From: Micromonospora solifontis | GTDB lineage: Bacteria > Actinomycetota > Actinomycetes > Mycobacteriales > Micromonosporaceae | Assembly: GCF_003725545.1 (NCBI RefSeq) | Contig: NZ_RJLN01000007.1 | Location: forward strand, 1-64,000 | Length of the DNA: 64,000 nucleotides | Reading direction: 5' to 3' | Shown: piece by piece, positions 4,442 to 16,008 of the stretch | Layout: each line of letters opens with the position of its first letter | Position numbering within the stretch: position 1 is the stretch's first letter | Program-made: the position numbers and the translations under genes | Notes under the pieces: model-generated | What the model saw: the letters and a program-made list of their open reading frames with translations, nothing else | Told to the model about the DNA's origin: nothing | The model's database searches: none

Positions 4442-6766
<2,325 letters not shown>

Positions 6767-6777
6767 GGCCGGGTTCC

Positions 6778-8034
6778 TCAGCTTCGCCAGACGTCGTTGA
6801 AGGTCACGGTGCAGGAGCCGGTGGTGGAGTGGACCCGATTCGCGCCGGTCTCCCAGATCACGTAGCCCGATTCGTTTTTCTTGATGTACTTGTATTCGAA
6901 GGTGACGTCGGGCGGGAGCTGCACGGTGCCCCGCCAGATCGGGTAGGTGGCGGCGGACAACGCCACACCGCTGCTGGTGTTCCAGTTGCCGAGTTCCGGC
7001 CGGTTGCCGACGACGAAGATGTTCTCGCCCCAGACGGTCTGCGCGTCGACCGCGAAGCTCACCGCGACCGTGCCGCAGCCGCTGCCACCGCCGGACATCT
7101 GCGCGCCGATGTGCAGCGCCAGCATGCCCCCCGCCGGCACGGTTGCGGTGAACTGGCCGGACGAGCTGACGATGTAGGCCGCGCCGGTGCAGGTCGTGCC
7201 GTTGACGTCGCCGTTGGCGATGTCGCAGTACGTCCCGGCGGGCAGGCTCGTCTGGAAGGTCCGGGTCAGCGGGCCGCCGTCGCGGTTGAAGACGACGTAC
7301 CCCTTGGCGTCGCGGCCGAAGGCGATCTGGCTGGAGCCGTTGCTCCACCAGTTGCTCACGCCCGTGCCGGCGACGGCGTTACGGAACCCGACCAGGTTCG
7401 CGGTGGTCCGCCAGCGGTGCTCGCAGACCCAGCCGTTGCCGCAGCTGACCTGGGTGGCACCGTCCTTGTAGGTGAGCCGGGCGCGGCCGTTGCGCTGGGT
7501 GTCGTGGTTGTCGACGAATGCGACCGCCTGGGCGGAGCTCAGCAGCATCGAGTTGGCCAGGTTGTTGAGGTTGGCGAGGTTGCCGCGCACGGACGCCGAC
7601 TCGGTCTTCAGGTCGGCCAGGTCCACCAGTTCGCAGTTCTGCACCTCCCACCGGTCGGTCCAGCTGCGGATGTCGTCGTAGCCGTAGGGCACGGTGGGGT
7701 AGCTGTAGTGGGTGTAGATCGAGCCGGCGCTGCCCGGGCCGGTGGACGCCCCGCCGGCCGTGTGGTTGACGACCGCGTCGACGTACACCTTCACGCCCGC
7801 GCCGTGCCAGGTTTGCACCATGGCGGCGAAGGCCGCCCGGTCGCCACGCCGCGACACCAGCTGGTAGCTGACGGGCTGATAGTCCTGCCACCACGGGTAG
7901 TTCTGGCCCGGCAGGACGACGTGTTCCTGCGGTGGGGAGACCTGGACTCCGCCGAAGCCCTTGGGGCCCAGGACGTTGGTGCACTCGCTGGCCACTGACG
8001 ACCAGGGCAACGTGGAGCGGATCCGATGATGCAT
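6778..8034 (-). CDS. Alpha-amylase-derived protein lacking signal peptide and catalytic core, with CBM20
   Basis: The 418-residue product resembles actinobacterial GH13 alpha-amylases: GPKGFGGVQVSPPQEH near the start, VYVDAVVNHT (region I, about 80-89), VQNCELVDLADLKTES, then FVDNHDTQR (region IV, about 170-178). A C-terminal beta domain and a CBM20 starch-binding domain (about 318-418) follow. The usual regions II and III, with nucleophile Asp and acid/base Glu, are absent: the text jumps from SVRGNLA straight to NLNNLANSM before region IV. A second jump follows YKDGA. There is no signal peptide. The frame is nevertheless intact, with an ideal ribosome site (GAGGAGG) and ATG at 8034, a promoter with operator, and coupling to the isoamylase. 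It is either a decayed gene, a starch-binding protein without activity, or an assembly or editing artefact. Confidence 0.75.
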   Translation of the reverse strand: MHHRIRSTLPWSSVASECTNVLGPKGFGGVQVSPPQEHVVLPGQNYPWWQDYQPVSYQLVSRRGDRAAFAAMVQTWHGAGVKVYVDAVVNHTAGGASTGPGSAGSIYTHYSYPTVPYGYDDIRSWTDRWEVQNCELVDLADLKTESASVRGNLANLNNLANSMLLSSAQAVAFVDNHDTQRNGRARLTYKDGATQVSCGNGWVCEHRWRTTANLVGFRNAVAGTGVSNWWSNGSSQIAFGRDAKGYVVFNRDGGPLTRTFQTSLPAGTYCDIANGDVNGTTCTGAAYIVSSSGQFTATVPAGGMLALHIGAQMSGGGSGCGTVAVSFAVDAQTVWGENIFVVGNRPELGNWNTSSGVALSAATYPIWRGTVQLPPDVTFEYKYIKKNESGYVIWETGANRVHSTTGSCTVTFNDVWRS

Positions 8035-8114
8035 TGTGAGGACCTCCTCGCGAGGGACGGGGGAGTGGTGCGAGGGGCGCCGAGCAGGCGGGCCCTGCCC
8101 GCTCGGCCGTGTCG

Positions 8115-8143
8115 ATCAATGCAAGTCCTTGCAATGTTTTCAA
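8115..8143 (-). promoter_or_regulatory. Amylase promoter with internal palindromic operator
   Basis: On the minus strand, TTGAAA (8143-8138) and ATTGAT (8120-8115) are separated by 17 bases and fit -35/-10 boxes. The spacer holds a perfect palindrome TGCAAG-GA-CTTGCA (8120-8133). This resembles the TTGCAAG-type elements before Streptomyces amylase genes that bind the LacI-family repressor MalR. The site lies about 85 bases before the amylase ATG. Confidence 0.7.
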
Positions 8144-8159
8144 TAAGCTAACACCTCGT

Positions 8160-8852
8160 TACATCGACGTGAAGACGTTGAACAAACCGCGAACCGATGC
8201 GCCGCAGCTGGCCCGCTCCGGCGGCAAATGCCGGGAAGGGCAACGCCAACCACCTGGCGTCGAGTGACAGTCATTGCCGCGGTAGCCGCCATCGGCTGGC
8301 GGCCTCGCATGCATGGCCGGCTTGGGTTGGCGGATCACTGCCAACCGCTTTCACATCTTGCACCGGGATTTCCCAAGGTCGAACTCGGCGTGGACGCCGA
8401 AGCCGATTCGCGGAGTGGCGCCGCGAACTGCTCGACGACGAGGAAGGATGACTCGGCTCCCGACTCGCGCCAGCGTTAAGCCTGCACCCGCAGGATCCCA
8501 CAACGTTTCAGCTGATCTTCGGCAAGCGATCGCAGCGAGCCCACGAAGCGACCGGCGCGCAACGGGGAAGATTGAAGGCCGCAGGTCGTCAGCCTGTGGA
8601 CACCGGCAGAGCGTCGTCTGAGGAAACCGTTGCTCTATCCTTGCGCTACGAGGGCGCGAGCGGCCAGTCTCGCGACCTGGGGTTCACCGGGGGTGGCAGG
8701 GAGTGACCTGCGTTCGCCCACGTCACCCGGACCACCGTTGGCCCAGCCCAGGACCACACCCGGAGTCTCCGGGTGACTCCGGCAGGTGGTGACATTCGCT
8801 CACCCGTCATTCCGGCGCCGACCGGTCCGGCCCGTACCGAACAACGGGGACG
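8160..8852. other. Intergenic stretch without a supported gene
   Basis: About 690 bases between the amylase promoter and the cellulase terminator. Several short open frames are present on both strands, but none has a ribosome site plus family resemblance. No LacI-type regulator gene is visible here, although one often lies near amylase genes. Confidence 0.55.
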
Positions 8853-11268: not shown

Positions 11269-13121
<1,853 letters not shown>

Positions 13122-13125
<4 letters not shown>

Positions 13126-13964
13126 CGGGTCCTCCCCCTGTGCGAGGTCATCGGTACGCGCTCGTCGGGCCGCTGCGCCTGCCAGGACGCGCGTACCCAG
13201 TGGTGGGCCGGGTCGTCGCGGCAGGCCATGGTCCGCTCGGGTGCCGGCCCGGCCAGCACGTTCAGGTAGTAGAGGTCGTAACCGGGGGCGGCGATGGACG
13301 GGCCGTGGTAGCCGTCGGGCACCAGCACCACGTCGCCCGCGCCGACCTCCGCGAGCACCTCGGTGCTGCCGTAGACGCGCTGGTACGCCAGCCCGTCGGT
13401 CTCGAAGTAGTAGATCTCCTCCAGCTCCGCCTCGCCGTCCCCGGCGATGTCGTGCTTGTGCGGCGGGTAGCTGGACCAGTTCCCGCCCGGCGTCAGCAGT
13501 TCCACGGCGACCAGCCGGTCACACTCGAACGCCTCCGGCGCGCAGAAGTTGTTGACCTGTCGGGTGGCCGGGCCGGCGCCGCGCACCTCCACCGGCACCC
13601 GCTCGGCGGGGCCGTACCGGGCGGGCAGCCGGCGGGTCGCCCGCGCCGCCGGCAGCGCGCAGCGCATCCCGGTGTCGGTGCTGATCGTGACGGTGTGGCC
13701 GATCGGCAGGTAGACGAAGTCGGTCACCCGGTCGAAGACGCTGGCCCGCCCGTCGAGGGTGAACGTCTGCCCACCGCAGCGCACCCGTCCGCCGCCGGCC
13801 AGCGGGAGCACCAGCTGCTCGAACCCGCCGGTCTCGAAGGTGATCTCACCGCCGGCGGGCAACTCGTGCACCCGCAGCCCGCAGTAGCGCCAGCCGGCCC
13901 GCTCCGGCGTGATCTCGACCGGGCAGCCGTCGCCGCCACCCGCTGTTCCCGCTGGGAGGTACAT
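13122..13964 (-). CDS. iolB: 5-deoxy-glucuronate isomerase IolB
   Basis: The 280-residue double-cupin protein isomerises 5-deoxyglucuronate to 2-deoxy-5-keto-gluconate, the step after IolD. Conserved features include NFCAPEAFECDRLVAVELLTPGGNWSSYPPHKHD, with metal-ligand His residues, then ELEEIYYFE and a late VLVPDGYHGPSIAAPGYDLYYLNVLAG region. A GGGGTGA ribosome site precedes ATG 13964. Only three bases separate the start from the stop of the preceding 30-codon ORF, so translation is probably coupled through that remnant. Confidence 0.93.
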
Positions 13965-13967
13965 GGC

Positions 13968-14060
13968 TCACCCCAGCAGCGCGGCGGCCGCGTCCACGGC
14001 ACCCGCCACGCCGTCGTCCGGCGGGTACCGCAGCGCCCGCGTCGCGTACTCGATGGTCAC
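13968..14060 (-). pseudogene. 30-codon ORF, probable core-deleted aldolase (DeoC/LacD type) remnant
   Basis: A GTG start at 14060 overlaps the iolC stop (GTGA) with a GGAGAGG ribosome site, and the ORF ends three bases before iolB. The product begins MTIEYA and continues with ALRYPPDDGVAGAVDAAA. That second part resembles my recollection of the C-terminus of the (beta/alpha)8 aldolase that often sits between iolC and iolB in actinomycetes (an LLYP...DVAAAVD pattern). The simplest reading is a gene whose middle, nearly 300 codons, has been removed in frame. A genuine micropeptide cannot be excluded. Confidence 0.45.
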
Positions 14061-15004
14061 GGCACCTCTCCCGTCAATTGGTACACCTCGTCGGCGGTGG
14101 GCATCGCAGCCGAGCAGGCCAGCCGCGCGGCCACGTACGCGCCGGCGCCGTTGGCGAAGCGCAGGGTCCGCTCCAGCGGCCAGCCGGCGAGCAGTCCGTG
14201 GCAGAGCGCGCCGCCGAAGGCGTCGCCCGCGCCGAGCCCGTTCACCACCTCGACCGGCACCGGGGGCACGACCACCCGGTTGCCGGCGGAGTCTTTGGCC
14301 AGGACGCCGGCCGGGCCCTGCTTGACGACCGCCAGCCGTACGCCGAGGGCGAGCAGGGCGTCGGCGGCCGCTTCGGGCTCGGTCTCGCCGGTCGCGACCG
14401 CGCACTCCTCGCGGTTGCCCACCGCGACGCTCACCCGGCCGCTGGCGAGCGCCGCCCGCACCTCCGCCTCGGCCTGTCCCGGCTCGGCCCACAGCATCGG
14501 CCGGTAGTCCAGGTCGAGCACGGTTTCCCCGCCGCGCCGCAGGTCGAGCACGGCGTGGTGCGCGGCCCGGCTCGGCTGGGCGGACAGGCCCGTCCCGGTC
14601 AGCCATACCAGGCGGGCGGCCGCCAGCGCGTCCTGATCCAGCTCCTCGGGACGGATGTGCAGGTCCGGGGCCTTCGGGGCGCGGTAGAAGTAGATCGGGA
14701 AGTCGTCCGGCGGGAAGATCTCGCAGAACGTCACGGGGGTCGGCAGGCCGGGCACCGCGGTGACGTACACGTCGTCGACGTGGTAGTCGGACAGGGCCCG
14801 GTGCACGTAGTCACCGAACGGGTCGGCGCCGGTGCGGGTGACGACGGCGACCCGCCGCCCCAGCCGCGCCGCGGCGACCGCGACATTGGTCGCGCTACCA
14901 CCGAGAAACCGGGCGAACGTGTCCACCTCGGACAGTGGCACGCCGGAGCGCAGCGGGTAGAGGTCGATGCCCACCCGCCCCATCGTGATCACGTCGTACC
15001 TCAT
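14057..15004 (-). CDS. iolC: 5-dehydro-2-deoxygluconokinase IolC (PfkB family)
   Basis: The 315-residue sugar kinase phosphorylates 2-deoxy-5-keto-gluconate in inositol breakdown. PfkB landmarks are visible: FLGGSATNVAVAAARLGRR near residues 34-52, and the C-terminal anion-hole motif NGLGAGDAFGGALCHGL with the catalytic Asp near residue 258. The start MRYDVITMGRVGIDLYP is typical of IolC. Its ATG overlaps the stop of a 31-codon upstream ORF (TGATG). The gene belongs to the iolC-iolB-iolD chain. Confidence 0.9.
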   Translation of the reverse strand: MRYDVITMGRVGIDLYPLRSGVPLSEVDTFARFLGGSATNVAVAAARLGRRVAVVTRTGADPFGDYVHRALSDYHVDDVYVTAVPGLPTPVTFCEIFPPDDFPIYFYRAPKAPDLHIRPEELDQDALAAARLVWLTGTGLSAQPSRAAHHAVLDLRRGGETVLDLDYRPMLWAEPGQAEAEVRAALASGRVSVAVGNREECAVATGETEPEAAADALLALGVRLAVVKQGPAGVLAKDSAGNRVVVPPVPVEVVNGLGAGDAFGGALCHGLLAGWPLERTLRFANGAGAYVAARLACSAAMPTADEVYQLTGEVP

Positions 15005-15099
15005 CAGTCCCCCCGACCGGCCGGGATCGGCAGGTCGGCGCGCGGGTCGGCGGTGTGCGCCGCGCCGATCCTGCCGGCGTCGAGCCACGCTGTCCGCAT
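15004..15099 (-). CDS. 31-codon leader ORF at the head of the iol operon
   Basis: ATG 15099 has a strong ribosome site (GGAGGTG, seven bases away) and the ORF ends in the iolC start (TGATG). The product starts MRTAWLDAGRIGAAH and is otherwise Pro/Arg/Asp-rich. The GRIG...H piece faintly recalls the nucleotide-binding start of Gfo/Idh/MocA inositol dehydrogenases, but this is weak. It may be a leader peptide coupling iolC translation or the scar of a deleted first gene. Confidence 0.5.
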   Translation of the reverse strand: MRTAWLDAGRIGAAHTADPRADLPIPAGRGD

Positions 15100-15208
15100 C
15101 GAGGAACACCTCCGGGCGGTTGTGCCGAACCGCGGCGAGCACGGGAAAGGCGAAAGAGAGACGTGGCTAGATTGTTAGTCGGCAGCCATTCGCCCTGTCA
15201 AGCGTTTG

Positions 15209-15219
15209 TAATGACATTA
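15209..15219. promoter_or_regulatory. GntR-type operator between iol operon and regulator
   Basis: TAATG-A-CATTA is a perfect palindrome embedded in an AT-rich island between the divergent iol operon and the GntR gene. HutC-type GntR repressors commonly bind such TA-rich palindromes, so it is the likely operator for both transcripts. Confidence 0.6.
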
Positions 15220-15267
15220 TTACTGCTGGTAAGGTGGCCGCACCGTGACCGAACTGCGAGGATCACC

Positions 15268-16008
15268 TTGACCAGGCCCCTGCCGATCACCCTCGATCGA
15301 TCGAGCCCCATCCCCCTCTATTTCCAGGTCGCCCAGCAGATCGAGGCCCTCATCGATCGCGGCGAGCTGCCGCCCGGCTCGCGGCTGGACAACGAGATAC
15401 TGCTCGCCGACCAGACCGGCCTGTCCCGGCCGACGATGCGCCAGGCCATCCAGCACCTGGTCGACAAGGGCCTGCTGGTGCGCAAGCGCGGCGTGGGCAC
15501 GCAGGTCGTGCACGGCGTGGTCAAGCGACCGGTCGAGCTGAGCAGCCTGTACGACGACCTGAGCCGCAGCAATCAACGACCCGGCACGAAGGTGCTGGCG
15601 GTGGAGACCGGGCCCTGCGACGACACGATCGCCGCCGCGCTGCGCCTGGCCCCCGGCACCGAGGTGGTGCACCTGCGACGACTGCGCTTCGCGCAGGGGG
15701 AGCCGCTGGCCATCATGCAGAACTGGCTGCCCACTGACCTGACCGAGTTGACCGCCGAACGCCTGGAGGAACGCGGGCTGTACGAGCTGCTGCGCGGGGT
15801 CGGGGTGCACATGCGGGTGGCCAACCAGCTCATCGGCGCCCGCGCGGCCACCCTCGCCGAGGGTCGGCTGCTCAACGAGCGCCGGGGGGCGCCGCTGCTC
15901 ACCATGACCCGCACCACGTACGACGACAACGGCCGGGCGGTGGAGCACGGTTCGCACGTCTACCGGCCGGCGCTCTACAGCTTCGAGATCGCCCTCGTGG
16001 AACGTTGA
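15268..16008 (+). CDS. GntR-family (HutC type) regulator of inositol genes
   Basis: The 246-residue repressor has an N-terminal winged helix (PLYFQVAQQIEALIDRGELPPGSRL, recognition helix TGLSRPTMRQAIQHL) and a C-terminal UTRA ligand domain (from about residue 95, with LRRLRFAQGEPLAIMQNWLP and a closing YRPALYSFEIAL). TTG at 15268 is chosen because GAGGATCACC just before it is the only good ribosome site; the nearby GTG at 15244 runs into a stop. It is divergent from iolC with a shared palindromic operator, so it probably represses the iol operon. The ligand is unknown. Confidence 0.87.
   Translation: MTRPLPITLDRSSPIPLYFQVAQQIEALIDRGELPPGSRLDNEILLADQTGLSRPTMRQAIQHLVDKGLLVRKRGVGTQVVHGVVKRPVELSSLYDDLSRSNQRPGTKVLAVETGPCDDTIAAALRLAPGTEVVHLRRLRFAQGEPLAIMQNWLPTDLTELTAERLEERGLYELLRGVGVHMRVANQLIGARAATLAEGRLLNERRGAPLLTMTRTTYDDNGRAVEHGSHVYRPALYSFEIALVER

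Follow-up and report, generated by a model that had tools for sequence, protein, structure and literature searches.

Alpha-amylases of the GH13_32 type work with a catalytic triad made up of the Asp of region II, the Glu of region III and the Asp of region IV, as set out in the pertinent section of PMC8467227. An operator known from Actinoplanes, the AcrC site, is written as CTGCAAG-2 bp-CTTGCAG in the relevant part of PMC5526262, and it resembles the TTGCAAGGACTTGCA of the locus described here. As regards the loss of gene segments, a portion of PMC2884548 discusses how small variable segments in bacteria may arise by short-homology deletion. Restarting of ribosomes at a second gene is sensitive to distance; for three gene pairs of E. 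coli, an extract of PMC10666635 gives a drop in reinitiation of 40-80% at +14 nt. Among the literature matches listed for amylase pseudogenes, short-repeat deletions, GH13_32/CBM20, MalR and coupling, there is no published account of an amylase block inside an isoamylase leader.

The window, i.e. the whole stretch of 64,000 nucleotides from Micromonospora solifontis that was analysed here, appears to hold such an arrangement. The reading that explains it best, to which we give a probability of about 0.6, is that a foreign amylase gene was captured in the 5' end of an isoamylase gene, has been decaying since and now serves as the leader ORF of the isoamylase. The ORF concerned (6778-8034, minus strand) starts with ATG and is open over all 418 codons; considered as a pseudogene, it shows no frame-breaking stop or frameshift along them. 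Judged by similarity, it is a GH13_32-type alpha-amylase with CBM20, minus the active core. The Pfam profile CBM_20 scores 105.6 bits (gathering score 23.3) and Alpha-amylase_C 61.1 bits (gathering score 21.2), while the catalytic domain reaches 20.9 bits, below the cut-off of 22, and covers residues 58-93 only. Against solved structures (phmmer), animal-type alpha-amylases are matched in separate pieces. The GC3 is uniform at about 0.945, with sliding pieces between 0.89 and 0.99. The retained parts and the places of loss are as follows.

6802-7071, minus strand: CBM20 starch-binding domain (Pfam CBM_20, residues 322-411; AlphaFold2 model)
7108-7347, minus strand: domain C (Pfam Alpha-amylase_C, residues 230-309; AlphaFold2 model)
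7455-7458, minus strand: junction D, with a loss of about 40 aa from the later barrel after KDGA193
7501-7518, minus strand: region IV remnant FVDNHD, with the region IV Asp kept (homologue alignments)
7576-7585, minus strand: junction C, about 82 aa lost after VR150, including regions II and III
7671-7678, minus strand: junction B, 33 nt (11 aa, a loop of the FHHCGRNGNDD type) lost at VPYGYDD between direct-repeat copies seen in homologues
7762-7779, minus strand: region I remnant DAVVNH, with the region I His kept (homologue alignments)

The gaps were counted against all members of a close set of 41 homologues with more than 58% identity. At junction B, 11 aa are absent relative to 41/41; at junction C the gap is 82 aa against 36/41 and 80 aa against the other 5/41, and at junction D it is 40 aa against 38/41 and 39 aa against 3/41. 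With about 133 aa of internal loss plus the first-strand region, a complete (beta/alpha)8 barrel is not there, and of the catalytic residues neither the region II Asp nor the region III Glu is present. By alignment column, the catalytic D, E and D are all present in 127/127 distinct homologous ORFs (collapsed from 147 in the retrieved loci); a cruder motif search misses a motif in 27 of these, and the column count is the more trustworthy. The window genome has two further amylases (on C172 and C183), both with all catalytic residues. Thus, alignment with full-length homologues bears out the statement of the initial annotation that regions II and III and part of the later barrel are missing from an open frame, and, together with Pfam, that region I, region IV and the C-terminal domains including CBM20 are kept. 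Its list of losses was real and incomplete, as the 11-aa gap near 7671-7678 had been overlooked. It had also placed the first junction inside a repeated NLA. The repeat is native sequence, as GNLANLNNLA is also read in L039, a homologue that is intact; the 82-aa junction falls near 7576-7585, at the repeat or immediately ahead of it. Close relatives with the same short form, which if of proven activity were named there as something that would speak against it, were not found among the 127 distinct homologues.

The N-terminus requires separate treatment. It reads MHHRIRSTLPWSSVASEC and, judged by eye, has no hydrophobic stretch that could act as an export signal; in 18 homologues, 37-73 residues (with the starts as chosen) precede the point where the amylase of the window begins. 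The signal peptide is indeed absent, as had been claimed, but not through a plain internal deletion, as the start of the ORF matches the leader of an isoamylase gene. The features of this leader, and those of the isoamylase gene on the other side of the amylase block, are listed below.

8120-8134, minus strand: operator-like TTGCAAGGACTTGCA, upstream of the amylase ORF
8035-8200, minus strand: promoter and leader of isoamylase type (local alignment to isoamylase leaders)
8042-8049, minus strand: ribosome-binding site GAGGAGGT in the leader of the amylase ORF
8014-8034, minus strand: codons 1-7 of the ORF (MHHRIRS), regarded as the original start of the isoamylase (compare MNPQSRSK in G137)
6784-8012, minus strand: amylase block inside the isoamylase gene, with boundaries good to a few bases
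6764-6780, minus strand: stop TGA (6778-6780), GAGG (6776-6779, overlapping the stop) and isoamylase restart GTG (6764-6766)
4442-6766, minus strand: complete isoamylase of 774 aa (similarity to 1bf2), with a signal peptide by inspection

For the leader comparison, the stretch from upstream of the operator-like site through the first nine codons was used. Its local alignment with the G137 isoamylase leader (L239) scores 154 and that with the G090 one (L238) 132, the range across L238 and L240-L243 being 105-132. The highest score in 300 shuffles was 54. None of the remaining isoamylase leaders scores above 72, and 60 is the top value among 18 amylase leaders (two of which are one record). An operator-like site lies within 250 nt of the isoamylase in 25 of the 29 relatives' loci, one of which has only 1 nt of upstream sequence; amylase leaders can hold similar sites as well, e.g. 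L283. The expression signals had been described as intact; they are present, but they are of the leader type of the isoamylase orthologues and not of the amylase.

When the block is left out, the flanks read MHHRIRSKLRNPAVKTYRFWAR..., in frame with the isoamylase; joined, they give MHHRIRSKLRNPAVKTYRFWARVALTITMLVTLAGVLAANPLTATPAQAGIDTQSLGARYDGT, for which the counterpart in G137 is MNPQSRSKPPTV... The gene is uninterrupted at the codon 8 site in G137 and in four relatives outside its clade (L240-L243). From the homology of the leader and the continuous reading of the empty site, the amylase block lies within codon 8 of the isoamylase gene; parsimony argues for insertion as the direction of change. 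In the isoamylase tree, the window, G090 and G137 form a clade with a support of 0.937, within which G090 and G137 pair weakly (0.694).

Such an isoamylase was found at E <= 1e-120 in 34 of 354 genomes of the family, the window's own included, and for 29 of the 33 relatives the loci could be compared, 28 of them with upstream sequence (flanks of 1.5 kb, and about 5-6 kb for four). None of these 28 has such an amylase beside the isoamylase. A draw of 394 genomes from the class yielded one further isoamylase genome, G757, which was placed in the tree. In one locus of G090 (L271), a CBM20 match lies about 5 kb downstream. G090 also carries about 90 extra nt at the same isoamylase codon as the amylase block of the window. 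These make a 39-aa ORF with its own ribosome site that ends directly before the isoamylase, and the 13-nt end AAGCTGAGGAACC is common to this ORF and the window. An amylase ancestry for the G090 insert was considered and dropped, as its score of 36 is not significant against shuffles with a mean of 31 and a maximum of 49. Since G090 pairs with the uninterrupted G137, an insert shared by the window and G090 would need a loss in G137, and is not favoured by the isoamylase tree.

Residues 38-773 of the isoamylase itself align with residues 2-749 of the 750-aa isoamylase 1bf2 (E 5e-299), and both it and the neighbouring GH6 cellulase gene are complete. No operator-like site was matched in the 250 nt before its GTG, which lies 11 nt past the stop of the relic, with the GAGG overlapping that stop. 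Translational coupling of the relic to the isoamylase is plausible on this spacing; it may be weak or partial over 11 nt, given the 40-80% fall at +14 nt in the E. coli pairs.

Two other regions of the window deserve mention. By family and similarity, an inositol catabolism cluster (11269-16008) comprises iolR, iolC, iolB and iolD. Its iolC-iolB interval is about 90 bp and has no aldolase gene, the distance between the matched parts being 920-990 bp in G011, G116 and G132. There is no iolG-iolE pair between iolR and iolC, unlike G011; a 2-kb gap is seen there in G116 too, and none in G132. A search of the own genome with the aldolase and iolE of G011, run with no positive control, gave nothing at E <= 0.001. 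Near the start of the contig (112-4001), an SbcC-type Walker B ATPase is followed by a DUF3323/DUF2399 protein, which we take to resemble a Wadjet-type defence pair.

The amylase gene was matched in 3 of the 159 other genomes of the genus (E <= 1e-55), and its relationships point to an origin outside the genus. When all retained columns are used for the tree, the window and L270, which comes from a genome of another genus (G283), fall together with a support of 0.954; the branch of the window is 0.180 as against 0.216 for L270, which ranks the window third of 42. The catalytic remnant alone gives a branch of 0.089 (rank 6 of 42), and for domain C plus CBM20 the terminal branch of 0.282 is the longest of the 42 sequences. 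Of 130 columns that do not vary among the 41 homologues, five are changed in the window (C76W, M92T, D169Q, G242D, V272I); the 41 homologues have a mean of 0.8 such changes, and 1 of 41 reaches five. Judging from related structures, Cys18 and Cys76 would presumably form a disulphide, and gap B also removes a Cys. Over columns that are 95% conserved the window differs at 6/181, and 6/41 others do as much; over the conserved columns of all 127 homologues it differs at 4/65, as much as 13/127 others do, and two of the four sit in the isoamylase-derived start. The fourfold-degenerate sites are saturated, which makes dN/dS unusable for the relic. On these comparisons, any relaxation of constraint would be mild at most. 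The overall branch, no longer than that of the sister, and the uniform GC3 suggest that either the losses are young or something has been constrained.

The kept frame had been taken to point to selection by itself. In genes of this kind, such an argument is not supported. Among the 41 homologues, direct repeats lying 20-350 nt apart are in phase in 2160/2558 cases (8 nt) and 311/337 (10 nt); for 57 ORFs on contig C1 of the same genome the counts are 2937/3675 and 495/562, respectively. Overall, the in-phase share of short direct repeats is 80-92% in such genes, and shuffling the codons gives fractions of 74% and 79%. As the repeats are mostly in phase, deletions mediated by them would usually keep the frame, and frame keeping is weak evidence for selection. 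This bias is clearly relevant at junction B only, where the homologues carry the repeat (mean longest run 7.1, null mean 2.9, with 3.4% of null positions reaching the median). At junctions C and D no clear direct repeat is seen in homologues (22% and 48% of null positions reach the median), so that the kept frame there is not explained by the phase bias.

What the relic would encode was approached with an AlphaFold2 model built from 28 sequences (mean pLDDT 66.1). The blocks from residue 211 on have a pLDDT of 79-97, except for a linker block at 62, and residues 30-60 and 85-205 fall below 50, the latter being 121 consecutive residues. Domain C and CBM20 are thus predicted to be folded and the remnant of the barrel to be unfolded.

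Taken together, the course of events proposed in the capture reading would be as follows. The gene of a secreted GH13_32 alpha-amylase with CBM20 would have been acquired and come to lie inside isoamylase codon 8, in frame with the isoamylase start codon. Its own 5' end would have been lost, as would three internal segments and with these the catalytic Asp and Glu; the product would be a probably inactive protein that is not exported, in which the barrel has collapsed and the two C-terminal domains can still fold. The promoter, operator and ribosome site of the isoamylase would now serve the relic first; ribosomes would translate it, and some would restart at the isoamylase GTG. The frame would be kept partly by the in-phase bias of repeat-mediated deletions, and possibly also since a break would reduce isoamylase expression; it may have been chance plus phase bias, the need for the isoamylase, or both. 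A bolder version, in our opinion unlikely, has the captured gene whittled by in-phase deletions to a translated leader, with the 39-aa ORF of G090 as the end state, the frame kept for the downstream enzyme and the relic protein idle.

An error of sequencing or assembly, with a gene that is in truth full length and has been shortened by the loss of pieces from a GC-rich stretch of poor coverage, is in our view also unlikely. Three internal junctions in one gene, a draft of 227 contigs rated 93% complete and retained amylase parts that are not fast-evolving as a whole would all suit an artefact, but 3/3 junctions are in frame, the relic has changes at invariant sites, and the junction with the isoamylase leader is a separate oddity that dropped pieces would not make. 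As a control, contig C1 (173,625 bases) was compared with the collinear G116 and G011 over 86 orthologue triples (36,160 query aa). With a lower limit of 8 aa, six gaps (8-23 aa, none of 40 or 82 aa) are private to the window genome (G000), as against three (18-19 aa) private to G011. The count covers gaps that do not overlap between the two genomes (overlapping ones reach 42 aa in G000); at two of the six places, G011 is unaligned or aligns only with a different piece, and some of the rows have stops in them and could be shadow frames. In this control, three rows (L135, L173-L180) align whole in G011 or G116 and are split in G000, which suits an artefact. Their pieces adjoin in both sequences, in different frames and with no length lost, and may reflect small indel errors, real frameshifts or shadow frames; they are a warning that the draft may contain errors. 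A genome-wide deletion artefact is thus unsupported on this 173-kb contig.

Somewhat more doubtful is an ancestral amylase-isoamylase operon, in which the amylase start region is now used by the isoamylases of the relatives and the amylase was lost in all of them. The extra nucleotides of G090, at the same codon and with the same ending, fit it, but several independent losses would be needed, no intact operon is seen in the 28 loci with upstream sequence and the G090 insert is not detectably amylase. Least probable of all is a selected non-catalytic protein that binds starch or glycogen and is made together with the isoamylase. Both CBM20 and domain C have good scores and a predicted fold, and the frame, start and operator are intact; against this, the isoamylase has an export signal whereas the relic has none, the half barrel is predicted unfolded over a run of 121 residues, the 127 homologues include no short-form relative, and the domain C plus CBM20 branch is the longest. 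With no export signal by inspection, an extracellular or exported starch-binding role is unlikely. Of the earlier proposal of a starch-binding partner coupled to the isoamylase, the link to the isoamylase is thus supported, while the selected binder is not.

If the capture reading is correct, the locus is a specific example of an ORF that is open, has intact expression signals and is nonetheless probably a relic, and whose frame may serve the next gene. In-frame deletions in GC-rich, codon-biased genomes are not by themselves evidence of selection, because most short repeats in such genomes lie in phase. The ORF at 6778-8034 should not be annotated as a working amylase.

In comparison with the actinobacterial, animal-type secreted GH13_32 alpha-amylases with CBM20, the ORF shares region I, region IV, domain C and CBM20, with an identity of up to 76% over retained columns, and of 85% with the enzyme of G277 over residues 9-159. 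It differs from them in having no nucleophile Asp, proton-donor Glu or signal peptide, and in its length of 418 aa as against about 580-735 aa in 18 aligned homologues. Like bacterial pseudogenes that arise from short-homology deletions, it has lost catalytic parts and has one junction at a direct repeat; unlike them, it is fully open and is the first ORF before a complete enzyme gene. With the relatives' isoamylase genes (same family) that carry a MalR/AcrC-like operator, it has the leader, operator, ribosome site and first codons in common, and the downstream enzyme is complete; here, however, the amylase block breaks into the coding sequence at codon 8, and the restart is at the GTG.
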